This document shows positions 37,451 to 61,392 of a stretch of DNA of 64,000 nucleotides, piece by piece. The stretch comes from Halorhodospira halochloris. Lineage in GTDB: Bacteria > Pseudomonadota > Gammaproteobacteria > Nitrococcales > Halorhodospiraceae. Position numbers and translations under genes: made by a program. Numbering within the stretch: position 1 is the first letter of the stretch; each line of letters starts with the position of its first letter. The notes under the pieces were generated by a model. That model had not been told where the DNA came from, made no database searches, and saw only the letters and a list, made by a program, of their open reading frames with translations. The stretch covers positions 1,178,001 through 1,242,000 of the forward strand of contig NZ_AP017372.2 of NCBI RefSeq assembly GCF_002356555.2, given 5' to 3'.

Positions 37451-37580
37451 AACTCCCCCGGAGCCACTCGACTGCCTCGGTTTGGAGGAGGCAGTGGGTC
37501 CACCCTAGGAGGCTTCATAGCGCCATCCCTGGCGACAAGAACTCCAAACCGGTGTGGTCGAGTGGCTCCGGGGGAGTATT
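37451..37580. repeat. Fold-back repeat R1
   Basis: Arms of ~38 bp: ACTCCCCCGGAGCCACTCGA at the left, matched by TCGAGTGGCTCCGGGGGAGT at the right, with CTCCAAACC at the inner edge. The core (37490-37541) reads ...GAGGCTTCATAGCGCCATCC, a diverged form of the shared core, in plus orientation. Between the pnp terminator and relA. Confidence 0.8.
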
Positions 37581-37733
37581 AGATGTCCCCTAGGGTTTGT
37601 CCCTGCACCATTTTTAGTAGCAACCACTTGTATCCCCTCACTATCGCCCTCATAACAGCGCAAAGATCTGCGCAGCACTCGCTGAAGGTGCGATTGCCAC
37701 GGATGGTTAAGCCACAATGGGGGTCCGGATAAT

Positions 37734-39938
37734 ATGGTCCAGACAGCTTTTACAGATATCGATGATCTCTCCACGCTGACTGTCGATGGCTGGCTGCGCC
37801 GGCTTCCTGCGCGCTTCGATAGTGAGGAATTGGGCTTAATTGCCCAGGCATGGGATCTGGCTCGGCACAAGGGCGATAATCTGCAGCGTCAGAGCGGTGA
37901 AAGCTATTTTGAGCACGGTGTAGCTACAGCGACGGCCTTGGCTGGCCTCGGCCTTGATGCAACCACCTTGGCCGCTGCTCTGGTCCACGACCTACCGGAT
38001 CTGGATGGTAGTTATAAGCAGATTCTCCAGCGTAAGCTAAATGCCGATATCGCCGATTTGGTGCAGGGCGTGTGCCGTATGCACGGGTTGGGTAGTTTTC
38101 ATGATTCGGCTGAACTGGAATCTGCTCACGGGAGCCGGGTTGAAGGCTTGCGCAAGATGCTGTTGGCTATGGCGCGTGATGTGCGTGTGGTCTTTATTAC
38201 CCTCGCCGAGCGGTTGCACGATCTGCGCAGCGCTAAGGAGATGGATCCGAGCCAGCGCCAGCAGCTAGCCCGCGAGACTCAGGAAATCTACGCCCCGCTG
38301 GCTAATCGATTAGGGATTTGGCAGCTTAAGTGGGAGTTAGAGGATTTATCCTTCCGCTACCTTGAGCCTGATAGCTATCAAGAGCTGGCTAGCATGCTCG
38401 CGGAACGGCGTAGCGATCGTGAAGTCTATATTCAGCGGGTACGGGCCGAGCTTCAGGCAGCTCTCGACGAGCAAGGGGTTAGCGCCCAGGTCTATGGGCG
38501 ACCTAAGCATATATTTAGCATCTATCGCAAAATGCAGCGCAAGGGATTGCGCTTTGATGAGCTCTATGACCTGCGCGCTCTGCGTGTCTTGGTCGATAGT
38601 GTGCAGCAGTGCTACGCCGCAATGGGTATAGTCCACGGGCTCTGGACACCCATCCCGCGTGAGTTCGACGACTACATTGCAACACCAAAGGAGAACAATT
38701 ATCGGTCACTGCACACTGCTGTAGTCGGCCCAGAGGGTAAGGCACTGGAAGTGCAGATTCGCACCCACCAGATGCATCAAGAGGCCGAGCTGGGTATTGC
38801 TGCACATTGGCGCTATAAAGAGGGCGGCAAGCAGGATGCGAATTTTGAGCGCAAGGTCGCATGGCTGCGCCAACTTCTTGAATGGGGCGGGGAGGATGGC
38901 GAGGCCGAGGACTTCGTCGATCAGGTGCGTGCCGAGGTATTTGCTGACAGGGTCTATGCCCTGACGCCAAGTGGTGATGTTATAGATCTGCCTCGTGGAG
39001 CCACCCCGCTGGACTTTGCCTATCATATTCATACCAGCTTGGGGCATCGGTGCCGGGGAGCTAAGATAAATAACCGCATCGTGCAATTGACCCGTCAGCT
39101 TGAGAATGGTGACCGGGTCGAGATAATGACTGCGCGCGAGGAGCGCCCGAGCCGTGACTGGCTTAACCCGCAGCTCGGGTTCCTCTACACCAATAGGGCG
39201 CGGAGCAAAGTCCGCACCTGGTTCAAGCAGCGTGACCACGATAAGAATGTCGCTGCCGGTAGACAAGTACTGGATAAGGAGTTGACGCGTCTTGGTGTGG
39301 ACGATGTCAGCATCGAAGAGCTAGCCAACCAGAGCCGGTACCAGAAGGCTGAGGCATTTCTATCCGCTCTGGGTCGGGGTGAGGTGACCAGCGGGCACAT
39401 AGCCTCGTTGTTGCGTAATCGTTTGTTGCCCCAGCGTCCTGAGCCCCCCCCGGCCAATGCCCAAGCGCGCCGAGCTACCGGCAGCGAGGGTGACATAACA
39501 GTTGAGGGGGTAGGCAATTTGTTGACCCGGATGGCGCGCTGCTGTGCACCTGCCCCAGGGGACCCGATAGTCGGCTTTATCACTCGCGGATCAGGGGTTA
39601 CAATCCATCGTCAGGACTGCAAAGATTTCGGTCATTTGCGCGAGCGTGAGCCGGAACGGGTGCTCGATGTAAGCTGGAGCACCGAGCCCGAGGGGCGCTA
39701 TCCGGTAAGGATAAATGTTCGCTCCGCCGAACTTAATGCCGTGCTTGCTGAGATTACCCGCTTGGTATCCAGTGAAGGGGCGCGCTTAGGTGGCGTGACG
39801 ACCCATACTGAGCAGGCCGATAGTTACCGTACCGAGCTCGACCTGCAGGTAAGTGATGTTCAGCAGTTAGCCCGGCTAATGGAGAAGTTGTCCGGTTTGG
39901 AGAACGTCGATTCGGTCTGGCGCGGCAGCAGCTCATAA
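37734..39938 (+). CDS. relA: GTP pyrophosphokinase RelA, (p)ppGpp synthetase I
   Basis: 734 residues. The HD region is degenerate: LVHDLPDLDGSY lacks the HDxxED of SpoT hydrolases, so this is a synthetase-only RelA. The synthetase domain has GRPKHIFSIYRKMQRKG, the EFDDYIATPKENNYRSLHTA block and EVQIRTHQMHQEAELGIAAH. TGS (VYALTPSGDVIDLPRGATPL), zinc-finger-like RCCAPAPGDPIVGFITRG and ACT domains follow. It makes (p)ppGpp on stalled ribosomes. Monocistronic as far as seen. Confidence 0.93.
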   Translation: MVQTAFTDIDDLSTLTVDGWLRRLPARFDSEELGLIAQAWDLARHKGDNLQRQSGESYFEHGVATATALAGLGLDATTLAAALVHDLPDLDGSYKQILQRKLNADIADLVQGVCRMHGLGSFHDSAELESAHGSRVEGLRKMLLAMARDVRVVFITLAERLHDLRSAKEMDPSQRQQLARETQEIYAPLANRLGIWQLKWELEDLSFRYLEPDSYQELASMLAERRSDREVYIQRVRAELQAALDEQGVSAQVYGRPKHIFSIYRKMQRKGLRFDELYDLRALRVLVDSVQQCYAAMGIVHGLWTPIPREFDDYIATPKENNYRSLHTAVVGPEGKALEVQIRTHQMHQEAELGIAAHWRYKEGGKQDANFERKVAWLRQLLEWGGEDGEAEDFVDQVRAEVFADRVYALTPSGDVIDLPRGATPLDFAYHIHTSLGHRCRGAKINNRIVQLTRQLENGDRVEIMTAREERPSRDWLNPQLGFLYTNRARSKVRTWFKQRDHDKNVAAGRQVLDKELTRLGVDDVSIEELANQSRYQKAEAFLSALGRGEVTSGHIASLLRNRLLPQRPEPPPANAQARRATGSEGDITVEGVGNLLTRMARCCAPAPGDPIVGFITRGSGVTIHRQDCKDFGHLREREPERVLDVSWSTEPEGRYPVRINVRSAELNAVLAEITRLVSSEGARLGGVTTHTEQADSYRTELDLQVSDVQQLARLMEKLSGLENVDSVWRGSSS

Positions 39939-40008
39939 AGGGATTTTGTAGAGATTTGCGCAGTGCAATTAGGTCTGCGCAATCAGCACTCGAAGAGGAG
40001 ATGGCGAC

Positions 40009-41772
40009 GTGGTTGACCAGGGAAGGAAGTCAGCGAGTATTGCTCGGCTAGGTGTTCTCATGGTGCTGGCATGGATTGCTGGCTGCGAAGGGCTCGATAG
40101 CCACGGCTCGGAGCAGTTAAAGCCGGTTTATTTGGTTGCTGGGCAGGGCAGTGACCGCGCCCAGCCCCAGGGTAGGGTTACCGTAAAGGGGGTGGTGAGC
40201 GGTGAGTTCCTTGGTGAAGATCAGCTTAACGGCTTTTTCATTCAAGGGCTGGAGAGCGCACCTGATGGCAAGCCGGCTGGATTGTTTGTCTATGCCCCGC
40301 AAATCGATGAATTTGCTGCCGAGAAGGTTGCTGCGTTGGAACAGGGCAGGGTAGTGCGCATAACTGGGCAGGCCGGTGAGTTCCATGGCCGTCCCCAATT
40401 AAGCCGTATTGAATCAATCGAGATAAAGGGCAAGGCCCCGCTAGAGAGCTACGAGTTGGCGTGGCCGGCGCAGAATAAGTGGCGATTTGAGGGGGTCCAT
40501 GTAACCATCGCAACAGATATGTTAGTTAGCGGCAACTATAAGCTGTCGCGTTTTGGTAGCCTGAAGCTGACCCCCGAGCGGCGGGCCTTTCGGCCGACTA
40601 ACTTTGCCCCTGGAGATGGCCCGGAGCAGCCGCGCCTGCGCGGACAAAGGCTGATTCTAGATGATGGCAGCTATTCGTGGTACCCCGATCCTATCCCCTA
40701 CCTCAATGATGATAATACCCGCAGGGTCGGCAGTCGGGTCAAAGAACTAAGCGGGGTGCTCACCCACGCCTTTGAGCAGTGGCGTATCCACCCCACCGAA
40801 GAGCCAACCTTTAAGGACTCTAATCCGCGTCCGCAACCTCTTGCAGAACCGGCAGCGGAAGAGGTGCGGGTAGCCGCATTCAATGTCGAGAACTATTTCC
40901 TTACCCTCGGCGAGCGCGGGGCCTCAAGCCAGCGCGAACTCGAGTTTCAACGGGCCAAGCTAATTGCTGCGGCGAGCTATCTAAATGCCGACATATTGGC
41001 CTTGGTTGAGATGGAGAACCGTGCCGACGCCCCAGAGGGTTTGGTCGAGCGGCTGAGTAAGGCCACAGATCAGCCGTGGGAGCTAGTGCGTGATCCTGAG
41101 GCAGGTAGCGCTGATGCAGGCAGCGATGCTATCAAGGTATCCATCGCGTATCGTGCTGATCGCGTTAAGAGAGTTGGTGAGGCACAGCGCGATAGAGCCG
41201 AGGTCCATCACCGACCGCCATTACTGGCCGTTTTTCGGGCCAGCGGCGGGGAGCACGACGACGGCGAACAGCAGGGTGAGCCTTTTGCGGTGGCAGCCAT
41301 CCACTTCAAGGCCAAGGTGGGCTGCCCTGAGAGCGGTGATATAGACCGCGGGCAGGGATGCTGGAATCTGCGGCGTAAGGAACAGGCAGAGGCACTGATT
41401 GAGTTTATCCGCGCCTGGCAGGAGGAAAATGACGATATACCGGTACTGATTGCCGGCGATCTCAATGCCTATGGTGATGAGGATCCGGCGAGAGTCCTGG
41501 CGAGCGCCGCGAAGGTCGATTTGTTAGCTGAGCATATCGCTTGGCCGCAACGCTATACCTATGTTTTTCGCGGGGAATCGGGTTATTTAGACCATCTTCA
41601 AGCTGCCCCCCGGTTGGCAGAAAGGGTTACAGCCGTTCACACCTTGCCGATCAATGCCGATGAGCCGCGCTTTTTGGAATTCGATGATGGCGGTCCGCGG
41701 GGCAGGTATCGTGACTCGAGTCCGTTTCGCTCGTCAGATCATGACCCTATCGCTGTAGATCTGCGCCAATAG
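40009..41772 (+). CDS. ExeM/NucH-type extracellular endonuclease, lipoprotein
   Basis: 587 residues. Begins at GTG with GAGGAG upstream. The signal peptide ends in the lipobox IAGC (Cys at about residue 26), so it is probably an outer-membrane-anchored lipoprotein. An OB-fold domain (VTVKGVVSGEFLGEDQLNGF) precedes the endonuclease/exonuclease/phosphatase domain: VAAFNVENYFLTLG, ILALVEMEN, AAIHFKAKVGCPESG, LIAGDLNAYGDEDP, YTYVFRGESGYLDHL and SSDHDPIAVDL carry the catalytic Asn, Glu, Asp and His. Likely degrades extracellular DNA for phosphate or biofilm turnover. Fold-back repeat R2 overlaps its stop codon region. Confidence 0.85.
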   Translation: MVDQGRKSASIARLGVLMVLAWIAGCEGLDSHGSEQLKPVYLVAGQGSDRAQPQGRVTVKGVVSGEFLGEDQLNGFFIQGLESAPDGKPAGLFVYAPQIDEFAAEKVAALEQGRVVRITGQAGEFHGRPQLSRIESIEIKGKAPLESYELAWPAQNKWRFEGVHVTIATDMLVSGNYKLSRFGSLKLTPERRAFRPTNFAPGDGPEQPRLRGQRLILDDGSYSWYPDPIPYLNDDNTRRVGSRVKELSGVLTHAFEQWRIHPTEEPTFKDSNPRPQPLAEPAAEEVRVAAFNVENYFLTLGERGASSQRELEFQRAKLIAAASYLNADILALVEMENRADAPEGLVERLSKATDQPWELVRDPEAGSADAGSDAIKVSIAYRADRVKRVGEAQRDRAEVHHRPPLLAVFRASGGEHDDGEQQGEPFAVAAIHFKAKVGCPESGDIDRGQGCWNLRRKEQAEALIEFIRAWQEENDDIPVLIAGDLNAYGDEDPARVLASAAKVDLLAEHIAWPQRYTYVFRGESGYLDHLQAAPRLAERVTAVHTLPINADEPRFLEFDDGGPRGRYRDSSPFRSSDHDPIAVDLRQ

Positions 41773-41929
41773 GTGGCCTCTAAAAACTCCGCCGGCGCCG
41801 CCATCCGCCCCGGTGTGGAGGTCTTGGCGCCAGGGATGGCGCCATGAAGCCTCCAGGGATGGATTCACGGCGTCCTCCACACCGGGGCGGATGGTGGCGC
41901 CGGCGGAGTTTTTAGAGGTTCCCAATAGG
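41766..41929. repeat. Fold-back repeat R2 with flanking 8-bp direct repeats
   Basis: Arms CCTCTAAAAACTCCGCCGGC (41777 on) and GCCGGCGGAGTTTTTAGAGG (to 41918) are exact complements and extend inward through CCGCCCCGGTGTGGAGG / CCTCCACACCGGGGCGG. The core lies between in minus orientation. CCAATAGG occurs at 41766-41773 and again at 41922-41929, each exactly 3 bp outside the arms: a candidate target-site duplication. The left copy contains the exeM stop codon. Confidence 0.88.
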
Positions 41930-41975
41930 CAAAAATAGATGAAATACAGGGGCATTTGCTTGTATCTTACCCGCC

Positions 41976-43649
41976 ATGAATCGTGAACAACTTCACCAAG
42001 CGCTCAATCAGCTGCCGGAGCAGCTGTTAGCACTAGATAGTCTGATAGCTCGGGAGCGCCAGGCCCCATGGCTAGCTAGGCGTGATCAAGTCATTCGCCG
42101 CACTAGATCTATGCTCGGGCGCATTGAGCGTGTCGATGAGCCTCTCCTGGTGGTTATTGCCGGAGGCACCGGGGCTGGTAAATCGACACTCGCTAATACC
42201 CTGGCTGGAGATGCCGTCTCGGCCACTAGTGCCCGCCGTCCGACCACATCGAGCCCCACCGCAATTGGTCAGGTTGCTGACCTTGAGGCGGTTTTGCGCC
42301 ACGGGGTTTTGTCCGCTCAGAGTGAATCCGGGTCAATTCAGGCGGTGCCGGTTGAGAGTGTCCCCGCCGGATTAGTGGTAGTCGACTCACCGGATGTAGA
42401 TAGTATTGAGACCGCTAACCGGGATGTTGCCGAACGCTTGCTAGAGGTCGCGGACGTATGGCTATGGCTGGCTACGGCGCGTACCTACGCCGATGAGGCG
42501 GGGATGGTCTATTTGCGGCAAGCCGCACGGCTGGATGTCTCAAGCCTGGTAGTGCTGACGCAGGTCAGTCTTGCCGAAGCCGATGAGATCATTCCCGATC
42601 TCGAGGACAAGCTGCATGAGGCGGGCCACCGGCAGGTGGAAATATATGTTGTGCCGCAGGTAGATACGGCTCAACAGCAGTTGCCGGTCAGCGCGGCTGC
42701 TGCGGTAGTCGAGCGGATACGTGACTTGGCTCCCGAGCAGGAGCGCGCCGAACACCGGTGGCGAACCGTTATAGGCGGTGTGCGCGCCTTACCCGATGAG
42801 CTTGATGAACTTATCAGCGAGGTCGAAACTGATAGAGCTAGCGTGCTCGCCTTAGAGAATACCCTGGAGCAAATCTATGGCGCTGCGCCGCAGCGGGTTA
42901 TTGAGCAGTTAAAGGATGCTGCCCCGCTGCGCCATGAAGTGCTGCGCCGCTGGAGTGAATTGGTTGGTGATGGATGGCTGCAGCGTCAGCTACATGCGGC
43001 GGCGAGCCGTTTCCCGCGCGGTATTTTCGATCGCCTGCCATTTTTTGGTAAGCGCGGCGAAGCTATTCAGCAGCAGGCTGTCGAGCAGGCTAGGGAAGGT
43101 GTGGCGGGATTGATAACGGAGGTGCTTGAGCATGCTGCCGGGGAGGTCGAGTCAAACTGGCGCGCTAACGGCAATGGTCGGGTTATCCTCGACAGGCTTG
43201 GTTCCCCTCGCGCTAGTGGTGAGGCAGCTCAGTACGAGCAAGCCCAGGAACTTGTTGAGGCTTGGGAAAAGAGGGTGGCTGAGCACGTTGCCACTATCGG
43301 CCAGGAGAAGTTGACCCAGGCGCGGCGAGCAACTACCGGGATTAACGCCACAGTAACCAGTGCCGCGGTTGTTCTGTTTACCCTCAGTGGTGGGCTGACG
43401 TTGGGGGAGGTGGCTTTGACCGCGGCCGGTTCAACCACCACTCACACGGTGCTCTCACGTATCCTCGGCGAGCGCAACGTCAATCAGCTCATTGAGGATA
43501 TCCGGGTCGATCTTGAGCAGCTCATAGAGGGCCTTGCTAAGCAACAGGCAGGGCTTTATCGAGATTTGCTTGAGCAGGCTGTGCCGAGCGATGAGCATAT
43601 AGTCGCTGTGCAGGAGTATCGTCAGCGGTTGGGGGCATTGCAATTATGA
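41976..43649 (+). CDS. Dynamin-like/GTPase-domain protein A
   Basis: 557 residues. G1 VIAGGTGAGKSTLANTLAG near residues 60-78, a switch-like RRPTTSSPTA, G3 VVVDSPDVDS, then a long helical stalk-like region with amphipathic stretch VTSAAVVLFTLSGGLTLGEV that may touch membrane. G4 is not canonical (VVLTQVS). Tandem GTPases of this form are best known in Actinobacteria; in a gammaproteobacterium they are unusual. It overlaps the next gene (ATGA), so the two products probably act together in membrane remodelling. Function unproven. Confidence 0.6.
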   Translation: MNREQLHQALNQLPEQLLALDSLIARERQAPWLARRDQVIRRTRSMLGRIERVDEPLLVVIAGGTGAGKSTLANTLAGDAVSATSARRPTTSSPTAIGQVADLEAVLRHGVLSAQSESGSIQAVPVESVPAGLVVVDSPDVDSIETANRDVAERLLEVADVWLWLATARTYADEAGMVYLRQAARLDVSSLVVLTQVSLAEADEIIPDLEDKLHEAGHRQVEIYVVPQVDTAQQQLPVSAAAAVVERIRDLAPEQERAEHRWRTVIGGVRALPDELDELISEVETDRASVLALENTLEQIYGAAPQRVIEQLKDAAPLRHEVLRRWSELVGDGWLQRQLHAAASRFPRGIFDRLPFFGKRGEAIQQQAVEQAREGVAGLITEVLEHAAGEVESNWRANGNGRVILDRLGSPRASGEAAQYEQAQELVEAWEKRVAEHVATIGQEKLTQARRATTGINATVTSAAVVLFTLSGGLTLGEVALTAAGSTTTHTVLSRILGERNVNQLIEDIRVDLEQLIEGLAKQQAGLYRDLLEQAVPSDEHIVAVQEYRQRLGALQL

Positions 43650-45388
43650 TCCATCGGCAAGGAAGCTATAGCGATTCCGCAATTGATCATAAAGTCGCTC
43701 CTAACTGCGAGGGTGAGCCAACAGCGCAGCAGAGCTCGACAAATGCAGCATCAGGTAAGGGACATACCCAGCAATTACAGGCGTTGCAAGATATCGTCGA
43801 TCTAGCCGAGCTCGGCGCGGGACGCCTAGATAACACTTTGCTTGATCAGCTGCGCAACCTAGAACAGCGCGCAGCGCAGCGCCTATCCCGATCCCGCGAG
43901 CATGTGGTTATCGCCCTTGCTGGAGGCACGGGTAGCGGAAAATCTTCGCTGCTCAATGCAATTATCGGCACTAACGTCTCCTCCCCGGGCGTCAAGCGGC
44001 CGACTACTGATCATGCCATTGGGGTTAGCATAGGGTCGGGAGAGGATGCGGCGCCGCTACTCGATTGGTTGCAGGTATTTGAGCGGCACTGTTTGGAGGC
44101 TGAGGGGCAGCTGAGCGGGATGGCTGGGGCGGTCATTCTCGATTTGCCGGATATAGATTCGGTTGTCGCGGCGCATTGGGATAGCGCCGAGCGGCTTATC
44201 GAACGCTGCGATTTGCTGATCTGGGTCGTTGATCCGCTCAAATACGCCCACGCCATAGGTCATCAGCGCTATTTAGCTAATTTGGCCCACCATGCCGAGG
44301 TCCTGGTGGTTACTCTTAATCATGCTGATCGTCTGGCTCAGGGCGATAGAGCTGATTGCATTAACCATCTCCAGCAACTGCTTGCCGAACATGGCCTTGA
44401 TAAGGCCAGAAGCTTACCTGCTTCGGCCAATACCGGTGAAGGGGTTGATCTGCTTAGGCAGATCATCGCCGAAGAGGTGCGTGAGCGCAGGGCCCCGGTA
44501 GAGCGGCTGCGCGCTGACTCGCAAGCGCTCAAGCAACAGGTCGGGCAGTCGGTGCCTGATCCCGGTGTTTTCTCTATAGACACACACGAGCTGCTTGAGA
44601 TGCAGCATGAGGCTCTCAATGAACGCGATCTGCTCCAAGCTGCGGCGGCTCTCTACCGGCGTATGGCCATCCAGTCGACCGCCTCGCCGCTAAAGAGGAT
44701 GGTCTTTTGGGGGGCTAAAAAGCTATGGCGGGGGGTGTTCGGTAACGGGCAAGAGGGCAATAAACTCGCCAGTAAGGCATCAGATAAAACCGCCACCAAC
44801 ACCTCAGATCATCTCACTAGCGCGGATCGCCCGCCAATAAAAATTTCTGAGCAGCGCCTGCGTTATGGCTTGGTAGATGCAGTTGATCACCTTGTTCAGC
44901 GCCTGCCGGCACCGGCCGCTCATCGCCTGCGCGAGGCGGCTGCTCAAAGTGCTAAACCATTCGCCGCCGGACTGCGACAGCAGCTCGAAGAATCCCTGCT
45001 TATAGAGCCCCGTAGACGCTGGTGGTGGCGCTCGGTGGCACTGCTGCGAGGGGTGGGTGAACTCGCTGCGTTGGCTGGAATTGCCTGGCTTATGCTGCGC
45101 TCGCTAGCCGATTGGTTGGTCTTGCCGCCAGTGCCGGTACCAATGTTTGTCGGTGAATTGGGCTGGCCGCCGGTGTTGATATTCGGCGGTATCAGCGCCA
45201 GCATCCTCATTGGTCTTGCCGCCAGGCCGGCTGCTAGTGTCGGTGCCCGGCGTCACAGTGCGCTATTGCGCCGCCAGATAAGTCGAGTTGTTGAATCCCA
45301 AGCAGCAGAAAAGAACCTCGGCAGCCTCAGCGGTGAACTAGATAAGATCCGCCAACTCTCGCTGCGTGCCTGTCGCGGGGCAAATTAA
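43646..45388 (+). CDS. Dynamin-like/GTPase-domain protein B, membrane-anchored
   Basis: 580 residues. G1 ALAGGTGSGKSSLLNAIIG, switch RPTTDHAIGV, G3 LDLPDIDSVV, G4 TLNHADRL (NxxD with His for Lys). Near the C-terminus two membrane segments, ELAALAGIAWLMLRSLADWL and PPVLIFGGISASILIGLAA, anchor it. Paired by overlap with protein A. Likely a membrane-linked large GTPase pair. No defence or division genes adjoin it. Confidence 0.6.
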   Translation: MIHRQGSYSDSAIDHKVAPNCEGEPTAQQSSTNAASGKGHTQQLQALQDIVDLAELGAGRLDNTLLDQLRNLEQRAAQRLSRSREHVVIALAGGTGSGKSSLLNAIIGTNVSSPGVKRPTTDHAIGVSIGSGEDAAPLLDWLQVFERHCLEAEGQLSGMAGAVILDLPDIDSVVAAHWDSAERLIERCDLLIWVVDPLKYAHAIGHQRYLANLAHHAEVLVVTLNHADRLAQGDRADCINHLQQLLAEHGLDKARSLPASANTGEGVDLLRQIIAEEVRERRAPVERLRADSQALKQQVGQSVPDPGVFSIDTHELLEMQHEALNERDLLQAAAALYRRMAIQSTASPLKRMVFWGAKKLWRGVFGNGQEGNKLASKASDKTATNTSDHLTSADRPPIKISEQRLRYGLVDAVDHLVQRLPAPAAHRLREAAAQSAKPFAAGLRQQLEESLLIEPRRRWWWRSVALLRGVGELAALAGIAWLMLRSLADWLVLPPVPVPMFVGELGWPPVLIFGGISASILIGLAARPAASVGARRHSALLRRQISRVVESQAAEKNLGSLSGELDKIRQLSLRACRGAN

Positions 45389-45421
45389 GGGGGGCGATAA
45401 ACAAACTCAATTTGCCCCCCA
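45388..45421. terminator. Possible bidirectional terminator
   Basis: GGGGGGC and GCCCCCC flank an AT-rich 18-base loop between the convergent GTPase operon and ectC. No strong T-run follows on either side, so the call is weak. Confidence 0.35.
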
Positions 45422-45498
45422 TAGACATAGACCTGATGAATCCCAGGTGCCCGCAGCACACTCCACCAGCGCCGCTGTCCAGAGAACCGTTGCTCCGG

Positions 45499-45879
45499 TT
45501 AATCGAGAATCGGGTAAGTACCGTTTTCGTCATGCACCTCGCGACCGGTCAAGGCTGGGTTGAAGACGCACATTAATCGCAGCTCTTGTTCGGCACGAAG
45601 ATAGTGTTTCTCGTGGCCGTCGAGGGCATAGAGCATGCCCGGCTCAATCGGGTAAGTCTCACCACCGACTACTTCGATCTCACCCTTGCCCGAAATGCAG
45701 TAGACCGACTCGACGTGGTTGGCATACCAGATAAACATGTCTGTTCCGGCCTTGATGATGGTCTCATGAAAAGAGAAGCCCATCCCGTCACTCTTGAGTA
45801 TAAAGCGGCGGCTTATGAAGTTGTCCGTCTCTACCTCGCGCTCGGAACCGCGAATATCATCCAAATGGCGTACGATCAT
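45499..45879 (-). CDS. ectC: L-ectoine synthase EctC
   Basis: 126 residues (family ~130). Cupin-fold: MIVRHLDDIRGSEREVETDN, MGFSFHETIIKAGTDMFIWY, HVESVYCISGKGEIE and YALDGHEKHYLRAEQELRLM, with metal-binding Glu, Tyr and His. It closes the ectoine ring from N-gamma-acetyl-diaminobutyrate. Last gene of the minus-strand ectABC operon. Confidence 0.95.
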   Translation of the reverse strand: MIVRHLDDIRGSEREVETDNFISRRFILKSDGMGFSFHETIIKAGTDMFIWYANHVESVYCISGKGEIEVVGGETYPIEPGMLYALDGHEKHYLRAEQELRLMCVFNPALTGREVHDENGTYPILD

Positions 45880-45930
45880 GCTGTGTTTTACCTTTAAATT
45901 GCAGATATGGTTAGTGAGCTGAACCTGATA

Positions 45931-47214: not shown

Positions 47215-47289
47215 GGCGCTGCCTCTCACTAGTGAAGTTGAATCTGGAGCACATGGGCTGTTTTAACGACTCCCATGGGCATGCAGCAA

Positions 47290-47784: not shown

Positions 47785-47817
47785 TTGGCCACGCTCTTTA
47801 GCGTATAATTTGCTTAG

Positions 47818-47846
47818 TTTATAGCAAGCGCATGCGTTGTGGTCAA
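47818..47846 (-). promoter_or_regulatory. ectABC promoter, -35 within repeat R3
   Basis: On the minus strand: -35 TTGACC (47841-47846), 17-bp spacer, -10 TATAAA (47818-47823). The -35 lies in the outer arm of fold-back repeat R3. The transcript would have ~28 nt before the ectA TTG. Confidence 0.68.
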
Positions 47847-47979
47847 GCCCAACGGCAGGTCCTGAATATGCCAATATGGGGACGCTACAAGCCATCCCTG
47901 GAAGCTCTATGCTCGCCATCCATGGCGAGCAAAGCCCCATATTGGCATATCTCAGGACCTGCCGTTGGCTGCTTGATCC
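47840..47979. repeat. Fold-back repeat R3
   Basis: Arms CAACGGCAGGTCCTGAATAT...CCAATATGGGG at left and CCCCATATTGG...CAGGACCTGCCGTTG at right, with outer TGGTCAAGC / GCTTGATCCA. Core in plus orientation, diverged: GCCATCCCTGGAAGCTCTAT and GCCATCCATGGCGAGC. Lies between the divergent ectA and tsaB. Least like the others, so probably the oldest copy. Confidence 0.8.
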
Positions 47980-48000
47980 AGATGCTTATTCAAGGAACTG

Positions 48001-48028
48001 TTTTCAGGCTAGCGCTATAAGCTATAAT
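48001..48028 (+). promoter_or_regulatory. Putative tsaB promoter
   Basis: -35 TTTTCA (48001-48006), 16-bp spacer, -10 TATAAT (48023-48028), 38 bp before the tsaB ATG. Confidence 0.5.
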
Positions 48029-48065
48029 TGCAAAAAAATTGCATCATCAATCGAGTAGTTGCTTA

Positions 48066-51311: not shown

Positions 51312-51349
51312 CGCCATGGCAGGTCTCTACCCCACTAGAGGGCCTTAAA

Positions 51350-51473
51350 AAAACCTCGAGCCATTAGCTGCCCCGGTATGGAGGTCATGGCGCTAGGGAT
51401 GGCGCCATGAAGCCTCCAAGGATGGATTCACGACGTCATCCACACCGAGGCAGCTAATGGCTCAAGAGGAAAT
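51350..51473. repeat. Fold-back repeat R4
   Basis: Arms CTCGAGCCATTAGCTGCCCC and GAGGCAGCTAATGGCTCAAG (a few mismatches at the inner and outer ends). Core in minus orientation, near-consensus (GGCGCCATGAAGCCTCCAAG, then GATGGATTCACGACGT). Between the convergent znuB and the methyltransferase gene, where it could serve as a bidirectional terminator. Confidence 0.85.
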
Positions 51474-51485
51474 GTGTTGCGATCT

Positions 51486-52250: not shown

Positions 52251-52329
52251 AATTGGCTCCTTTGAAATTTGCTTGTAGTTGGCGCCCTCTGCGCGAGCGC
52301 GGGTGCTAGCCGGGGTATCGGCGCAGAGA

Positions 52330-52758: not shown

Positions 52759-52869
52759 GCGCGGTACTATAAGGGCTGAAAGCAGTTAAAATCTACACCT
52801 AAGCTACATGGTTGCTGAACAGTTAAGTAACTCACCTTGCCTGCTTAGCAAAACCAGCTAGGAGAGAAA

Positions 52870-54405: not shown

Positions 54406-54422
54406 ACCAGTAAAGGGAATAC

Positions 54423-55790
54423 ATGTCTGGAGCACCTAGCTCGTCTACCGAGCCAGTCACCCATATCCATCAGTTAATCGCCTACATTGAGCAAGGAGCC
54501 CGCCCCAAGCACGAGTGGCGCATTGGTACCGAGCATGAGAAGTTCGTCCACCGGCTGGAGGACTTCGGCCCGGTAGATTATGCCGGGGAGAGGGGGATTG
54601 GCGAGTTTTTGATCAGGATGCAGCGCTTCGGTTGGGAGCCGGTCCATGAGGCAGGTAATGTGATCGCCCTCAAGCGCGCTGGAGGGGCCTCTATCAGCCT
54701 AGAGCCGGGCGGGCAGATAGAGCTTTCCGGCGCTCAGTTAGAGTCTCTGCACGATACCTGTTCGGAGGTAGGCAATCATCTCGAGCAGGTCAATGAGGTC
54801 TCGCGCGAGCTGCAGGTGGGCATGCTAGGGTTCGGTTTCCACCCGCATTGGCGCCGCGAGCAGATCCCGTGGATGCCTAAGCAGCGCTACGATGTGATGG
54901 GCCGTTATATGCCGCAGGTCGGCAGCATGGGCCTGGATATGATGCTGCGCACCTGCACGGTGCAGGTCAATCTGGATTTTTCCAGCGAGTCTGACATGGT
55001 CCGCAAGATGCGCGTCGGCATGGCTCTGCAGCCGATTGCTACCGCCTTGTTCGCCAACTCGCCGTTGTGTGAGGGTAAGCCCAACGGCTATTTGAGCTAT
55101 CGCAGTCGTGTTTGGGAGGATACCGATCCGGATCGCTGCGGGATTCTGCCCTTTGTCTTCGAGTCGGGCATGGGCATAGAGCGCTATGTCGAATACGTCC
55201 TCGACGTTCCCATGTACTTTGTCCATCGGGACGGCTTTTATGTCGACTGTGCCGGGGAGTCTTTCCGCGATTTTCTCGCCGGTCGTCTGCCGCAGTTACC
55301 CGGTGAGTATCCGACTCTGGGCGATTGGGATTTGCATTTATCGACCCTCTTCCCGGAAGTGCGGCTAAAGCAGTTTTTGGAGATGCGCGGGGCCGACGGC
55401 GGCGGCTGGCAAGGACTTTGTGCTTTGCCAGCACTGTGGACTGGACTTCTCTACGATAGCGCCGCGCTCAGTGCCGCTGAAGAGCTAATAAGTGACTGGA
55501 GTGGTGAAGAGGTTATGCAGCTACGCCATGAGGTACCCCGAACTGCCCTGCGGACGCAATTTCGCAATACTACGGTCCGGGAGATTGCCCGGGATGTTTT
55601 GGCTATAGCCGATGAGGGGTTGGCCAATCGTAATCGCCTGGATAAACGTGGCCGTGATGAGCGCCGCCATATTGAGCGGCTGTGGCAGACGGTGGATAGT
55701 GGTGTGACGCCGGCTGAGGAGCTGCTTGATGTCTTCCATAACCGTTGGCGAGGGGACATTGAGCCGGTCTATACTGAGTTTGCCTACTGA
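54423..55790 (+). CDS. gshA: Glutamate-cysteine ligase (plant/alphaproteobacterial type)
   Basis: 455 residues. WRIGTEHEKFVHRLEDFGPV, SISLEPGGQIELSGAQLESL, LGFGFHPHWRREQIPWMPKQ-type block with RYDVMGRYMPQVGSMGLDMM and TCTVQVNLDFSSESDM are the class 3 (plant-like) GCS signatures. First step of glutathione synthesis, feasible as a response to oxidative stress in a halophile. Its 3' side carries repeat R5. Confidence 0.9.
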   Translation: MSGAPSSSTEPVTHIHQLIAYIEQGARPKHEWRIGTEHEKFVHRLEDFGPVDYAGERGIGEFLIRMQRFGWEPVHEAGNVIALKRAGGASISLEPGGQIELSGAQLESLHDTCSEVGNHLEQVNEVSRELQVGMLGFGFHPHWRREQIPWMPKQRYDVMGRYMPQVGSMGLDMMLRTCTVQVNLDFSSESDMVRKMRVGMALQPIATALFANSPLCEGKPNGYLSYRSRVWEDTDPDRCGILPFVFESGMGIERYVEYVLDVPMYFVHRDGFYVDCAGESFRDFLAGRLPQLPGEYPTLGDWDLHLSTLFPEVRLKQFLEMRGADGGGWQGLCALPALWTGLLYDSAALSAAEELISDWSGEEVMQLRHEVPRTALRTQFRNTTVREIARDVLAIADEGLANRNRLDKRGRDERRHIERLWQTVDSGVTPAEELLDVFHNRWRGDIEPVYTEFAY

Positions 55791-55844
55791 ACTCGTCGCT
55801 GGAGCTTGCTGATAATCCTGCCGATTAGGCCGTTCTTTCCAACA

Positions 55845-55986
55845 GCCTCAAAAATCCCCCTGCGCCACTTGGTGCCCCCGGCGTGGAGGACGCCGTAAAT
55901 CCATCCCTGGAGGCTTCATGGCGCCATCCTTGGCGCCAAGACCTCCACTCCGGGGGCACCAAGTGGCGCAGGGGGATTTTTGAGGC
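55845..55986. repeat. Fold-back repeat R5
   Basis: Arms GCCTCAAAAATCCCCCTGCG and CGCAGGGGGATTTTTGAGGC are perfect complements, continuing inward through CCACTTGGTGCCCCCGG / CCGGGGGCACCAAGTGG. The core (plus orientation) differs from the R6 core at one base. GC stem plus TTTTT on both outer edges looks like a two-way intrinsic terminator between convergent gshA and the usp gene. Confidence 0.9.
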
Positions 55987-56015
55987 ATCTTGCAGCAGAT
56001 CAGAAGAAGCTCTCC

Positions 56016-56864
56016 TCAAGGTAGTACCAGTAGCGGGATGCGCAGCCGATCCACCAGTAACTCGGCTGCCTCGTAATGGATCAGCTGGCTGCGGCGGCTG
56101 AGGATTAGTTTACCTATACAATCATCTGCGACTATGCCGGCTATCTGCTCGGCATCGATGTCGGTTGTTGAGATCAGTCTTGCCCTTGGGTAGTGATCTA
56201 GGAGCCAGGGGCGCAGCTGCTTATCTATAAGCTCTGAGTCATTTTCCGGCTCAACAACTACCGTCGCTAGAGTCTCATGCTCGCCGAGCATGGCGTGGGC
56301 TAACCGTAACGTCTCGAGGCCAGAGTGGCTAGTAGAATCTGCTTCAATGAGAAGCGCTGCGCGCAGTTGCGTCTGTCTGCCTGCGACCGGCTGCTCCCAG
56401 ACCATTACCGGCCCCGGGGCTTGGCGGGTAACAGCCCGAGCCGTTGAGCCGAGGCGCAGTCCCCGAGTTCGGGCGTAGCCGACCCGGCCGAGGATCAGGA
56501 AGTCATCAGCGCTGATTTTCTGCAGTGTCTCGGGGATGACCCGGCCCCGACTTACATGCAGCTGCCATTTTATCTGGCGGCTGCCCGCGCAGCGGTTAAG
56601 GGCCCTGCGTGCCTCTTCGGCACGGTGGCGCATGCTCTCTTCCAGGGAGTTGCGGTCGATCTTGCGCACAGCACCTGATAGGCCGATTTCACGCGCCCAC
56701 GGGTAAGCGGCGCAGCGCAAGAGATCTTCCTCCTCGATAAATAGGGCAAGTAGCTCAGTCTGCCAGTGACAGGCTATATCAATAGCAGTATTCAACGCTT
56801 CAAGGCTGTTACGGGAGGCATCAATCAGCACAACAACCCGTTTGGGGCTGTACTCATTAACCAT
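56016..56864 (-). CDS. Tandem universal stress protein
   Basis: 282 residues with two UspA-like domains: VVVLIDASRNSLEALNTAID at the start, DFLILGRVGYARTRGLRLGS then TARAVTRQAPGPVMVW, and a second weaker repeat ending LLVDRLRIPLLVLP. The first domain's glycine-rich loop (GRVGYARTRG..GST) is the ATP-binding type. The ATG at 56864 overlaps the lon-like stop, so the two genes are coupled. Confidence 0.8.
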   Translation of the reverse strand: MVNEYSPKRVVVLIDASRNSLEALNTAIDIACHWQTELLALFIEEEDLLRCAAYPWAREIGLSGAVRKIDRNSLEESMRHRAEEARRALNRCAGSRQIKWQLHVSRGRVIPETLQKISADDFLILGRVGYARTRGLRLGSTARAVTRQAPGPVMVWEQPVAGRQTQLRAALLIEADSTSHSGLETLRLAHAMLGEHETLATVVVEPENDSELIDKQLRPWLLDHYPRARLISTTDIDAEQIAGIVADDCIGKLILSRRSQLIHYEAAELLVDRLRIPLLVLP

Positions 56865-59307
56865 TGATTTCCCCCTGGGACTCATCCGGTGAGCTGTTAT
56901 CAGCGCCTAACCTGTTATCACCCTGACTGTTATCATCCGCTCTGGAGCCATGCTGCGCCTGGGCGAATTTCTCCAGTCTTGCTGCTATCCTGGCGTATAG
57001 CGACCCTTCGCTCCAATTGCCTTCGGCATCCTGTTCACCCACCGGGGAGTCGGTCAGTAGATGCACAGCCTCATCGACGTAGTGCAGTGGATAGATATGG
57101 AATTGCCCTGCAGCTACAGCATCTCTGACCCTCTCGGCCAACATCAAATGGGCGACATTGCTCGCCGGCAAGGCGACCCCCTGGGTGCCGGTTAACCCTG
57201 CATCCTGGCAGATATCAAAAAAGCCCTCGATCTTCTCATTCACCCCGCCTACCGCTTGCACTTCGCCGAGTTGGTTAATCGAGCCGGTAAGGGCAATGTC
57301 CTGGCGCAGGGGTAGCTCACCGATAGCGGAGAGCAGGGCGCACAGTTCGGCTACCGAGGCACTGTCGCCATCGACGCCGGAATAGCTCTGCTCGAAGGCT
57401 ATGCTGGCTGACAGGGATAACTCGCTCTCTGGTGCGAAGCGCTTGGCTAAGTAGCGGGAGAGGATCATCACCCCTTTGGAGTGGATATTGCCTCCGAGCT
57501 TGGCCTCACGTTCGATGTCGATCAGCTGCCCTTTGCCGGGCCGGGCGGTAGCTGTTATGCGGGTCGGGCGGCCGAAGCTAAAGTTGCCTAGCTGAAGTAC
57601 AGAAAGCCCGTTAACGCATGCTATCTGCCTGCCATCCGTATTGATTACAAGTGTGCCACGACCGATCATCTGCCGACTGCGATCGCGCAACCTGGCGGCG
57701 CGCCGCTCCTGTGCGGCAAGGGTTTGTTCGATATGGCGGCGCTCAATGATCTGTTCATGATCGCCGGCAGCGTAATTATCGGCCTCCTGGAGTAGATCGG
57801 CTAGATTGCGTCCGCCCGCCTCAAGGCGCAGGCTGTCTTCGGCCATACGGCTGCTGTACTCGATTATCCGCGCTACGGCCTCGTTATTTAGATGGCGCAA
57901 ATCAAGTTGTGCGGCGAATGTGGCAATTAGCCGGGCGTAGAGCCTCTCGGTTTCACTATCCCGCGGTAGATCATCCTCAATGTCGGCCTCGATCTTGAAA
58001 AGATCAGGGAAATCCGGGTCGTAGGCCGAGAGCAGGTAATAGATGATGCGGTCACCGAGTAGAACGACCTTAGTGTCTAGTGGCATCGGTTCGGGCTCAA
58101 GGGTTACCGTACTCCAGAATCCGTGGACCTGTTCAAGCGACTCAATTCGCACCTCACCGGCGAATAGGGCCCGTTTCAAAGATTGCCAGGCATAGGGCTG
58201 AGTCAAGAGTTTTTGGGCATCGATTATCAGGTAGCCGCCATTAGCCTGGTGCAAAGAGCCGGGTCGGATGAGCCTGAAGTCGGTTAACAGTGCCCCTTGA
58301 AAGACGTGATGCTCGGTGCGCCCGACTAGGCGCTGGTGGTTGGGCAGATCCTCGTATACTACCGGAGCCCCTTGGTCCGGTTCGTGGTTGACGATAAGGT
58401 TGCCCCGGTACTGGTTTAGTACCGCTTCCATAGAGTCCTGGTTATCCTGCGGCTTGAATGCCTCGATGTTTTCAATGATGTCATTGCGGATTGCCTCTAG
58501 GTGTTCGGCAGCTACCGGGTTGTCAGCGCCGTAGCGCTGATGAAGCTGCTGAATACGGTGACCGATAGCGAGCAGGGTCATCTCTTCGTTGAGCTTGCGG
58601 GTCTGCTCTTGTACCTCTTTGCGCCACTTCGGCGCCTGTTTTGCTATCTGCTCGAGCTTCTCCTGTAAATATTCGATATTCTTCTGAATTTCCTTGCGCT
58701 CTTGCTCAGGAAGCTGCTGAAACTTGTCCGGTTCGATGACCTCACCGTTTCTCACCGGGGCGATGGTGAACCCGGATGGTGTCTGGAGCAGGGTGGCGTC
58801 GAGCTGTTCGGCCTCTTGTTGGAGTTGCTCAAAGGCTTCGCGCTGGCGGCGGTTGAGTTGCTGTTGGAGCTCATGGAGGCGATTTTGATACTCATCGCTC
58901 TCGAATGTGGCGGGGATGTTGCTGCGCAGCTCATCGATAAGCTCATCCAGGTCAGCGCACCACTTCTCCCCCTCGCCGGCAGGTAGCCGGAGCAGTTTGG
59001 GGTAAGTGGAGTCGTCAAAGTTATTCAGGTAGCACCAGTCCGAGGGGGTTTGCTGTGAGTTGGCACGGGCCTGGATGAGACGCCGAGCCAGATGTAGTTT
59101 GCCACTGCCGTCGGGGCCGAGAACGAATATGTTAAAGCCGTGCCGGGAGATCTGTGTACCCAACTCAAGGGCTTCAAGTGCCCGCTCTTGGCCAGGGGGC
59201 TGTGCTATCGGCTCCAGCTCAGCGGTGGAGTTAAAGCCTAGGTCGGCTGCTGGGCAGATACGGTAAAGCCTATCCAAGGACAGTGGCTGCGGCTTGTGCA
59301 TAGTCAC
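56857..59307 (-). CDS. Lon-like ATP-dependent protease (LonB/YcbZ type)
   Basis: 816 residues. The N-terminal AAA_32 region has a modified Walker A (FVLGPDGSGKLHLARRLI; Lys followed by Leu rather than Ser/Thr). A long coiled-coil insertion follows (about 130-230). Then GALLTDFRLIRPGSLHQANG, and the Lon protease domain with catalytic Ser in DGDSASVAELCALLSAIG and Lys in GGVNEKIEGFFDIC. The C-terminal tail is Asp/Ser-rich. It would degrade misfolded proteins; the coupled universal stress gene fits a stress role. Confidence 0.85.
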   Translation of the reverse strand: MTMHKPQPLSLDRLYRICPAADLGFNSTAELEPIAQPPGQERALEALELGTQISRHGFNIFVLGPDGSGKLHLARRLIQARANSQQTPSDWCYLNNFDDSTYPKLLRLPAGEGEKWCADLDELIDELRSNIPATFESDEYQNRLHELQQQLNRRQREAFEQLQQEAEQLDATLLQTPSGFTIAPVRNGEVIEPDKFQQLPEQERKEIQKNIEYLQEKLEQIAKQAPKWRKEVQEQTRKLNEEMTLLAIGHRIQQLHQRYGADNPVAAEHLEAIRNDIIENIEAFKPQDNQDSMEAVLNQYRGNLIVNHEPDQGAPVVYEDLPNHQRLVGRTEHHVFQGALLTDFRLIRPGSLHQANGGYLIIDAQKLLTQPYAWQSLKRALFAGEVRIESLEQVHGFWSTVTLEPEPMPLDTKVVLLGDRIIYYLLSAYDPDFPDLFKIEADIEDDLPRDSETERLYARLIATFAAQLDLRHLNNEAVARIIEYSSRMAEDSLRLEAGGRNLADLLQEADNYAAGDHEQIIERRHIEQTLAAQERRAARLRDRSRQMIGRGTLVINTDGRQIACVNGLSVLQLGNFSFGRPTRITATARPGKGQLIDIEREAKLGGNIHSKGVMILSRYLAKRFAPESELSLSASIAFEQSYSGVDGDSASVAELCALLSAIGELPLRQDIALTGSINQLGEVQAVGGVNEKIEGFFDICQDAGLTGTQGVALPASNVAHLMLAERVRDAVAAGQFHIYPLHYVDEAVHLLTDSPVGEQDAEGNWSEGSLYARIAARLEKFAQAQHGSRADDNSQGDNRLGADNSSPDESQGEING

Positions 59308-59386
59308 CTTTTTTCAGCAGTGGTTGCCAAGTTAGGAGAAGCCAATACCTTTGGTGCTACAGTGGTGGGATTGGCAGTTTCTCCCC

Positions 59387-60052
59387 CTATATACCCAAGA
59401 GCAAGTAGGCCACGAAGGCCGTTGCCAGTGATACGGTCAGGTTATCTTCACCGTTGCGCGATATGGCTTCAAATAGGGTGGCTATAGTGCCAATCGCGAC
59501 GGCTGGCAAGATCACCGTTGCCAGGCCATAAAACGGTGCCAGCACTATTACGGATAATGCCGTGCTGACCAGGAACATGGTCGCACTACCCTCAAAGCTC
59601 TTGGTGGCCCCGCGGATGTTATAGCGGTGCCGGCCTAGATAGTAGCCGACGAATCCGGCCAGGCCATCGCCCCAAGCCATGATGAGGATGCCGAGGACCG
59701 CAAACACCTCGCCTTCCAGCGGCCAGAGTACCGAGATGAGGATGACGTGGCTGAGCGCATAGTAGAAAAATCCGAGGTTGGTGCGCTTGGTGCCATCGCC
59801 GCTTACCAGGATCTTCAGCCGGGTAAGGCTTAGTATTACGCCGATGGTCACTAATGCCGTGGTGGTGATGGCGAGCCAGACTGGGATCTCAAACCACCAG
59901 GCGATAAGGATGATATGACCACCACCGATATGGGCGATCTTGCGGGCGAACTCCGGTTGGGCGCCGAAGTAGCGGCGCAGCCCTTCGGCGATAGCGATGA
60001 TCGCGGCAATGCCAATGATTGCTAGAGCAGCATGAAATAGGCTTGTAGTCAT
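59387..60052 (-). CDS. Polyprenol/diacylglycerol kinase-like membrane protein (SEC59/DGK1/VTE5 family)
   Basis: 221 residues with about six hydrophobic helices. FARKIAHIGGGHIILIAWWF, TNLGFFYYALSHVILISVLW and MAWGDGLAGFVGYYLGRHRYNIRGATKSFEGS are the CTP-dependent lipid kinase signatures. Members phosphorylate dolichol, phytol or diacylglycerol. In a phototroph a phytol kinase role is possible, but no pigment genes are present in the window. An upstream ATG at 60073 overlaps the porin stop and is an alternative start. Confidence 0.7.
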   Translation of the reverse strand: MTTSLFHAALAIIGIAAIIAIAEGLRRYFGAQPEFARKIAHIGGGHIILIAWWFEIPVWLAITTTALVTIGVILSLTRLKILVSGDGTKRTNLGFFYYALSHVILISVLWPLEGEVFAVLGILIMAWGDGLAGFVGYYLGRHRYNIRGATKSFEGSATMFLVSTALSVIVLAPFYGLATVILPAVAIGTIATLFEAISRNGEDNLTVSLATAFVAYLLLGI

Positions 60053-60062
60053 ATCTGGCGTC

Positions 60063-61238
60063 TCAAAAATCAAACCTCACTCCACTCGATAGCGCCCAGG
60101 TCGTACAGCCCCTATCGGCTGGCGAGGCATCCTCCATTGCCTCGCGATCCGGTCCCGCCGTACGGCCGTGGACCCAAGGTGCTAAGCAGGAATTACTTTT
60201 ATTGTTGATGTTGGCGAAGGTGGTATAGAGCCGGGTTCTCTCATCGGCGTGGAAGACGATACCCAGGGCGCCCATCCGCGCACCATAGCCGCTGCGATCG
60301 GCGTCGATGGCGTAATATTGACCGCGCAGTTCGAGGTCTTCGGCGAGGTTGTACTTTACACCCAGACCGCCACCTAGTGCATCCACATACCCCTCAGGAT
60401 CATCATTATTATTGTCAAAGTATGGGAAAGAGTCCTGGGTGATTTGCGCTAAGGCATAGAGGGTTAAGTTTTCGCTTGCCTCGAGTTTGACGCCTAGGCG
60501 GTAGCCCTCTCCGGAGCGGCGATCATCAAGTGTATCTCCCTCAGAGCCGTAATAGCGCTCATGCCCCAAGGCTAACCAAAACCGCTCGCCGACGTAGCGC
60601 AGCAAGGCGCTATAGGAGTTGAAATCATTATCATCGGCGGGGGTCTCTTCATCGCTATCACGATCCTCAGTATCGAAGCTATACTGCAACTCCACCCCCC
60701 AGCCTTGCTGCTCAGGGCTGATATAGCGGATACCACTGCGCATTCGCCCATCGAGGTGGGGGTTGTGTGGTCCGCGCAGCACATTGCGCGTGTCACCCAT
60801 TTGACCGCTAAACAGATCGGTGTCACCGCGCAGGTCTTTCAGGACTGTGTTCATGTAGCCGAGCTTGATCGTCCCCCACTCATCCTCAAGGCCGAGAAAG
60901 GCGCTGCGCGAGGCCCAATCCGCCCCTCTGCCACGATTAAAATCGATCCATTGCTCCACTTCGCCGAGCAGTTTCAGGCCGGTATCGAGAGTATGTTCGG
61001 CTTGAATGCCGATGCGGCTAGAGTTGCTAGCTAAATCAAAGGCTGAGTATTCGTCACCGCCGTGGTAGTAATCGACCGATACGTTAGCGCGACCGTAAAC
61101 CTCTATATCGGGGGAGTCATCCTCAGACAGCACCGCTGAGGGATAGCTGAGTGAGGCAATTAGCAGCGCGGCAGGGCCCAACAGGCGGCCATCAACCGAC
61201 CATGAGCGCTGCCGCTGCGGGCGTGTTGCCCGGCTCAC
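60063..61238 (-). CDS. Gram-negative porin
   Basis: 391 residues from GTG at 61238. A positively charged n-region and hydrophobic GPAALLIASLSYPSAVLSED form a signal peptide; cleavage is probably near SAVLS. The body shows beta-barrel porin patterns: DIEVYGRANVSVDYYHGG, SSRIGIQAEHTLDTGLKLLG, FLGLEDEWGTIKLGYMNT, and the C-terminal WALSSGVRFDF ends in Phe, as required for BAM assembly. Frames extended upstream run into repeat R6, so I reject them. The mature protein is acidic, as expected in a halophile. Confidence 0.8.
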   Translation of the reverse strand: MSRATRPQRQRSWSVDGRLLGPAALLIASLSYPSAVLSEDDSPDIEVYGRANVSVDYYHGGDEYSAFDLASNSSRIGIQAEHTLDTGLKLLGEVEQWIDFNRGRGADWASRSAFLGLEDEWGTIKLGYMNTVLKDLRGDTDLFSGQMGDTRNVLRGPHNPHLDGRMRSGIRYISPEQQGWGVELQYSFDTEDRDSDEETPADDNDFNSYSALLRYVGERFWLALGHERYYGSEGDTLDDRRSGEGYRLGVKLEASENLTLYALAQITQDSFPYFDNNNDDPEGYVDALGGGLGVKYNLAEDLELRGQYYAIDADRSGYGARMGALGIVFHADERTRLYTTFANINNKSNSCLAPWVHGRTAGPDREAMEDASPADRGCTTWALSSGVRFDF

Positions 61239-61247
61239 AGTAGCAGG

Positions 61248-61392
61248 AACCTCGAAATAACCCCTCGCTGCCATCAGCTGCCCCACTGTGGAGGACGCCG
61301 TAAATCCATCCCTGGAGGCTTCATGGCGCCATCCCTGGCGCCAAGACCTCCACAGCGGGGCGGCTGATGGCAGCGAGGGGTTATTTCGAGGT
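61248..61392. repeat. Fold-back repeat R6
   Basis: Arms ACCTCGAAATAACCCCTCGC and GCGAGGGGTTATTTCGAGGT are perfect complements, continuing through TGCCATCAGCTGCCCC / CGGGGCGGCTGATGGCA with one or two mismatches. Core in plus orientation, GTAAATCCATCCCTGGAGGC then TTCATGGCGCCATCCCTGGC. Lies 10 bp upstream of the porin start. Confidence 0.9.

Follow-up and report, generated by a model that had tools for sequence, protein, structure and literature searches.

The stretch of DNA analysed here, referred to below as the window, comprises 64 kb of the Halorhodospira halochloris genome (positions 1178001–1242000 of C1, the single contig of 2.83 Mb), and our subject is a family of foldback elements, six of which (R1–R6) lie in its second half. 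Each is ~125–145 bp long and consists of two complementary arms enclosing a conserved apex. A covariance model built from copies in the source genome and in other genomes finds exactly six elements in the 64 kb at E ≤ 1, and none below 37 kb. Together with the folding, this bears out an earlier note on this DNA, which had described six foldbacks at the positions given below and had remarked that the integron half of the window is free of them.

R2 (41777–41918, minus strand) is an intact member of the main subfamily, with inverted repeats at 41765–41821 and 41874–41930, the apex on the minus strand at 41812–41883, and a target duplication, CAATAG, at 41767–41772 on the left and 41923–41928 on the right. 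R4 (51350–51473, minus strand) has arms at 51355–51382 and 51439–51466 and a minus-strand apex at 51375–51446. The arms of R5 (55845–55986, plus strand), at 55845–55889 and 55942–55986, are 98% complementary and enclose the apex at 55880–55951, and the inverted repeats of R6 (61248–61392, plus strand), at 61246–61294 and 61347–61395, are 94% complementary around an apex at 61285–61356. The remaining two elements are more diverged, their apices scoring 50.6 and 53.9 bits in the covariance model against 70.8–93.3 for the other four. They are R1 (37451–37580, plus strand), with arms at 37452–37487 and 37542–37577, its apex at 37479–37550 and CTAGG in the outer flanks on both sides, and R3 (47840–47979, plus strand), with its apex at 47872–47944. 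In an ungapped comparison the arms of five window elements are 89–98% complementary; R3 is outside that list, yet it folds as one stem. As had been reported, R5 and R6 differ at one of 52 apex bases and have different arms. The description of each core as holding two repeated motifs stands in part, with two exact copies of CCATCCCTGG in R2 and R6 only, one in R1, R3 and R5, and no exact copy in R4. That all copies are intergenic is approximately true: R1, R3 and R6 overlap mechanically listed open reading frames (ORFs), and this overlap is no evidence of genes. At other loci too (L006, L257 and L161) the apex, which can be read through in several frames, becomes part of such ORFs, so that public genomes may carry it mis-annotated as protein.

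The whole-genome search for the core that the earlier note had proposed was made with the 35-bp apex. At ≤3 mismatches it gave 233 copies, split 102 to 131 between the two strands, and a reversed-pattern control gave none. More diverged copies also exist, since the core was found at ≤9 substitutions in 13 of 15 stretches picked by their terminal repeat alone. Our detailed reading of the arms covers 128 copies of the source genome. A stem of at least 20 columns is present in 122 of these, with a median of 46 columns; twelve stems are perfect, and the 122 together contain 327 mismatches and 93 gap columns in 5501 columns. The target site is outermost and is followed inwards by the terminal repeat GGNACCTCTAAAA. 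Next come a hypervariable segment of the arm (~20 bp) and an inner arm resembling CCCCGGTGTGGAGG, and at the centre is a 52-nt apex which folds into two hairpins to give a T-shaped tip. The hypervariable segment occurs in 102 distinct forms among the 122 copies, and complementary arm positions 14–24 and 24–34 show own-locus identities of 0.80 and 0.77, compared with 0.50 and 0.48 between loci. The arms are thus locus-specific in this middle part, as had been claimed; many copies have the same outer ends (CCTC...AAA) and the same ~14 bp on the inner side. One stretch picked by its terminal repeat, L162, has at 1967–2046 a hairpin with GGGCACCTC ends from which the apex core is absent; it may have arisen from an element by deletion or be a terminator of unrelated origin.

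The ends of the element carry the marks of transposition. Recognisable shared terminal inverted repeats are present in 99 of the 128 copies. In one register the 6-bp flanks of 20 of these 99 are identical, compared with 0.47 after shuffling, and for 5-bp flanks the corresponding figures are 35 and 0.97. The element is therefore supported as a mobile unit of ~145 bp, arms included, that resembles a miniature inverted-repeat transposable element (MITE). Because both the duplications and the terminal repeats sit outside the variable arms, the arms came with the element.

The two arms of a copy change together. In one subfamily of 44 copies, 54 changes recur identically in the two arms of a single copy, whereas 1000 shuffles which paired left arms with the right arms of other copies gave a mean of 10.7 and a maximum of 21. 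The two-sided changes are thus about five-fold over the shuffles, which on the whole upholds the suggestion that the structure is maintained beyond drift; one-sided changes are also common, with 71 one-sided departures from the consensus. Arm positions 15–34 have 39 symmetric and 20 one-sided changes, and the outer positions 35–43 have 14 and 39, respectively. Per site, the change amounts to 0.046 in the arms and 0.013 in the apex. Symmetric insertions or adjacent substitutions also occur, and L058 and L118 have extra bases in both arms. The earlier note had reasoned that the arms would be just diverged parts of one element if the same arms accompanied the same core at many loci. This is the case for part of the family, the 44-copy subfamily having common arms; the arms therefore move along with the core, and their rewriting follows.

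The same behaviour was followed at one orthologous site in another genus (f188/g291). We take this genus to be Marinobacter, as a guess only. The site is intergenic, between a regulator-like and an acyl-CoA-dehydrogenase-like ORF; its flank was present in 116 of 120 genomes, and the 50 best-matching of these 116 were followed. The element is kept in the same orientation in 35 of the 50 species, and 15 are without it. In L357 and L360 another sequence is inserted in the first apical hairpin; the stems of these two were unusable, so that they were left out and 33 usable elements remained. In L344 and L367 a short palindrome remains and the apex has apparently been lost. The 33 usable orthologs have 27 distinct 22-nt right arms, forming 22 groups at ≤2 differences. 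Between species the apex agrees at 83% and the 110-bp leader at 62% of positions, and arm positions 7–24 at 47%; left and right arms agree at 94% within a locus against 47% between loci, and only 55 of 946 stem columns are mismatched. Among 54 close pairs, which are not independent of one another (leader identity ≥75%, ≤6 differing arm positions), there are 175 symmetric and 54 one-sided differences. L384, compared with L370 and with L383, has a leader 96% identical and shows four symmetric and no one-sided arm changes. As the site is orthologous and fixed, the symmetric change of its arms places at least part of the rewriting after insertion. This, along with the two-sided changes among copies within the source genome, supports hairpin-templated rewriting of the arms, one of two explanations offered in the earlier note. 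The one-sided changes are read as new mutations awaiting copying into the other arm.

The apex also appears to change its orientation relative to the ends of the element. These ends are of two types (..AA or ..G before CCTC). Of 53 copies that could be typed, 39 have one end of each type; the expectation is 27.1, and 39 is attained by 2 of 2000 shuffles. The 30 main-subfamily copies with clear ends divide into 12 with one apex orientation and 10 with the other, the remaining 8 having equal or untyped ends. L058 and L118 share the same rare insertion and have opposite end order.

The family extends well beyond the source genome. A model of the apex matches 77 of 369 genomes of Gammaproteobacteria at E ≤ 0.01, from many families, and 16 of 299 genomes drawn from the phylum at E ≤ 0.0001, all 16 from the same class, the share of other classes among the 299 not being given. 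When named genomes were scanned with a pattern, at least 119 stretches matched, and among the 80 listed all have gammaproteobacterial names or the label Proteobacteria; Xanthomonas, Stenotrophomonas, Marinobacter, Shewanella, Ectothiorhodospira and Cellvibrio are among the genera of the matches listed. The copies printed from other genomes likewise have the apex on long complementary arms, which mostly differ by locus; those of one genome (G009) have common arms with symmetric differences. In several genera there are inverted pairs of two alternating types, ~150–320 bp apart. One locus, L336 (G595:C1), contains at 946–2082 six copies in the same orientation with a period of ~227 bp.

Taken together, these observations make it very probable that the element is a MITE-like unit spread by transposition, the arms of which are rewritten by template switching and the apex of which is sometimes inverted, while the apex sequence is kept for another reason. 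In such a scheme the whole element would spread by transposition, to which the target duplications and the copy number point. The arms form a long inverted repeat, at which replication would repeatedly switch template from one arm to the other, so that a substitution or small insertion in one arm would be copied into the other; the pattern is seen in the copies themselves, and polymerase template switching during replication is what we infer from it. The same switching would sometimes invert the apex between the ends, for which the pattern is again visible. As a result the arms would drift fast yet stay complementary, and the apex would be conserved because its two loops are required by some factor. 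For polymerases that switch template between inverted repeats, arm homogenisation, clustered changes and reversible inversion of the spacer have been described (extract of PMC8604942), and since two of these recorded outcomes, arm homogenisation and spacer inversion, are seen here, the data fit template switching.

Several points weigh against this interpretation. An exact 6-bp duplication in the best register is found in just 20 of the 99 copies. Scanning of terminal-repeat stretches (15 of 128 hits at ≤2 mismatches) revealed no autonomous element that has these ends, so that mobility rests on the duplications and the copy number. Three pairs of orthologs whose leaders are 95–100% identical (L342/L347, L342/L355 and L353/L365) differ one-sidedly only. 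In the 44-copy subfamily, the changes private to one copy comprise 13 symmetric and 31 one-sided ones. Both findings are what fresh mutations awaiting copying would give, but plain drift would give them too. An inverted apex was not found at the orthologous site, all 35 elements there being in one orientation. The yeast spacer inversions in the extract of PMC8604942 changed 2–5 bp, far below a 52-bp apex. Finally, ectopic conversion between copies could swap both arms simultaneously. With regard to inversion, a search for an inverted element at the 15 remaining orthologous sites gave two weak matches only, each with six substitutions, and these were not accepted.

The reason for which the apex is kept may lie in RNA. 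One possible reading, which we hold tentatively and which is compatible with arm rewriting by template switching, is that the apex is an RNA part, its two CANGGANG hairpins binding RsmA/CsrA so that the element serves as a mobile binding site or a sponge. Both apex loops read CANGGANG on the minus strand of the apex, which equals the recognition consensus A/UCANGGANGU/A given for Rsm/CsrA in the extract of PMC6849547. The motif is present in each loop of all 33 usable orthologs, where only the two N positions vary; the pattern by which the orthologs were detected included the first loop, with 5 substitutions allowed, and not the second. It is also found in 123 and 125, respectively, of 128 class-wide matches, figures that are partly driven by a search pattern which itself favoured CANGGANG. 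The source genome has csrA, as do 72 of the 77 genomes with the element and 241 of the 292 without (P = 0.02); this association is weak and uncorrected for genome size, completeness or relatedness. Against an RNA function, the GGA strand is not preferentially sense to the neighbouring genes: in tandem contexts of the source genome the counts are 16 and 18, and the named loci lean the opposite way, 18 to 7. Nor do the arm mismatches show a G-U bias. We regard as conceivable, though doubtful, the fuller proposal of a class-wide mobile DNA family with paired Rsm/CsrA-recognition hairpins as its payload, placed atop a palindrome whose arms are renewed through hairpin-templated copying. Were it true, the tip alone would be inherited as sequence and the arms just as self-complementarity, and the element would at once move a post-transcriptional regulatory site about the genome and keep a natural record of template-switch mutation.

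It is unlikely that ectopic gene conversion or recombination among copies, which would swap interior blocks and so shuffle pieces of arm and apex between loci, accounts for the data, serious as this alternative is. Such exchange would agree with the existence of three copies whose two arms are of different types (L044, L125 and L160), possibly scars of recombination between copies. It would agree as well with L327 and L330, which are different loci in two genomes with nearly the same arms and different second hairpins, and with L370 and L384, which differ in the first hairpin as well as in arm blocks. However, with 102 distinct arm middles among 122 copies (128 having been read) there are few donors, 13 symmetric changes in the 44-copy subfamily are private to single copies, and arms differ among the five copies that were read in a Marinobacter-like genome. 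Conversion alone would also leave the match of both arms unexplained.

We consider it improbable that the arms are matched through selection for a paired stem, in RNA or DNA, by ordinary compensatory substitutions arising in one arm at a time. The arms do remain paired across species, and one-sided differences are present, as intermediates would be. G-U intermediates are few in the helices of 25 sequences from three families, where 6 cells are one-sided and 18 unpaired against 156 two-sided, of 675 in all. Read on the plus strand, the arm mismatches comprise 78 G-U and 99 A-C, without the G-U bias that RNA selection would give. Because G-U intermediates are scarce and the mismatches are unbiased, a DNA process is indicated rather than selection on an RNA stem. 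In L384 as compared with L370 and L383, few as these pairs are, 4 of 22 arm positions have changed on both sides at 4% leader divergence, whereas constrained stems should be slower; symmetric insertions too speak against one-by-one compensation.

The other explanation offered in the earlier note has the core enter the loop of terminator hairpins that were already present and whose arms are native to each site. It would suit the strong differences between the arms of different loci and the A and T runs of some arms, reminiscent of bidirectional terminators, but is very improbable, because the terminal repeats common to the loci and the target duplications lie outside the arms, the 44-copy subfamily has common arms, the arms are absent in aligned relatives, and the copies are not confined to 3' ends (16 of 74 classable copies of the source genome, out of 102, lie between divergent ORFs). 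The comparison of empty sites that had been suggested points the same way: at R2, R3 and R4, the sites that could be aligned, same-genus relatives have short intergenic stretches without a matching hairpin, and this evidence is weak because the adjoining DNA is just 65–76% identical.

If rewriting by template switching is right, a heritable feature of DNA is kept as a relation between two sequences, one arm being recopied from the other. The hundreds of copies per genome and the genus-wide orthologs would then allow template switching to be measured in nature, as to its rate, the length of its tracts and its preference for a strand. An explanation would also be at hand for an abundant kind of intergenic DNA, which occurs in many gammaproteobacterial families. 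In addition, a connection with a global RNA regulator, open to direct test, is suggested by the CANGGANG loops.

The element shares features with several known systems. Like MITEs it is short (~145 bp), of high copy number (233 at ≤3 mismatches) and without a long ORF of its own, and has terminal inverted repeats and target duplications. Unlike them, it has a near-complete palindromic interior, an apex conserved across the class and arms that are copy-specific yet complementary, and no parent transposon was found in the stretches scanned. With repetitive extragenic palindromic (REP) sequences and bacterial interspersed mosaic elements (BIMEs), including the GTAG- and CGTC-tagged REPs in the extract of PMC3733652, it has in common that it is an intergenic palindrome with hundreds of copies. 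The inverted pairs of alternating types at several Xanthomonas, Stenotrophomonas and Halopseudomonas loci resemble REP heterodimers. It departs from them in its size of ~145 bp as against the 20–40 bp given in that extract, its stems having a median of 46 columns around a 52-nt apex, in the two apical hairpins inside long arms, and in the target duplications seen in the source genome. The tag of such REPs is expected at one end; inside the apex of the present element, CGTC occurs when the minus strand is read (GGCGTCC in R2).

Template-switch mutation at quasipalindromes was reportedly described by Ripley in 1982, as cited in the extract of PMC8604942. The cases in that extract resemble ours in that arms are homogenised, several bases change in a cluster and the spacer inverts reversibly; they are scattered short repeats, whereas here one family appears to be hit repeatedly and to owe the diversity of its arms to this, and the spacer is 52 bp long. 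The two CANGGANG loops per element, on stems that are free to vary, recall the Rsm/CsrA-binding hairpins in the extract of PMC6849547, from which the element differs in sitting in a dispersed mobile unit, in having no orientation preference in the source genome and in matching no Rfam family at cut-off. MITEs and template switching are thus known kinds; as far as our searches tell, within the literature covered, what is new is how they are combined, how far the combination reaches and that the loop code is conserved. A description of the repeat was not found by sequence strings or topic among open-licence papers. No match to the 80-nt query was found in plasmid and phage collections, and no exact match in viral contigs. 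No Rfam family reached cut-off on the window elements or on eight named loci; loose matches of R6 at a relaxed threshold, mainly to eukaryotic microRNA models, were below cut-off and were taken as chance.

The mobilising enzyme was not found in the stretches and loci scanned. Of the 15 terminal-repeat stretches, scanned for ends, cores and shared repeats, 13 hold further copies, and L161 and L162 are without an accepted core; none of the 15 resembled an insertion sequence, and in L161 the ORF between the two weak inverted ends matches no Pfam family. A comparison of 568 ORFs from the fetched loci showed no recurrent transposase. In Shewanella an inverted pair of elements flanks a KAP-family P-loop NTPase (L242, 5104–7149), and in the source genome another flanks an AAA_14/DUF4143 ATPase (L006, 1501–3072, with L005). 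These two proteins might be cargo; we did not adopt this for genes between paired elements, since the pair at L315 encloses apparently ordinary genes and the 568 ORFs lack a recurrent transposase. Y1_Tnp is found in 60 of 77 element-bearing and 181 of 292 other genomes (P = 0.01), a weak association, and is absent from several genomes with many copies (G122, G125, G131, G290 and G368). The window itself has a match to Y1_Tnp, an IS200-like transposase, on the minus strand at 19746–20111 (G000:C1:1197746-1198111), and, in the integron half, matches above the Rfam cut-off to two group II intron models on the plus strand at 9471–10795.

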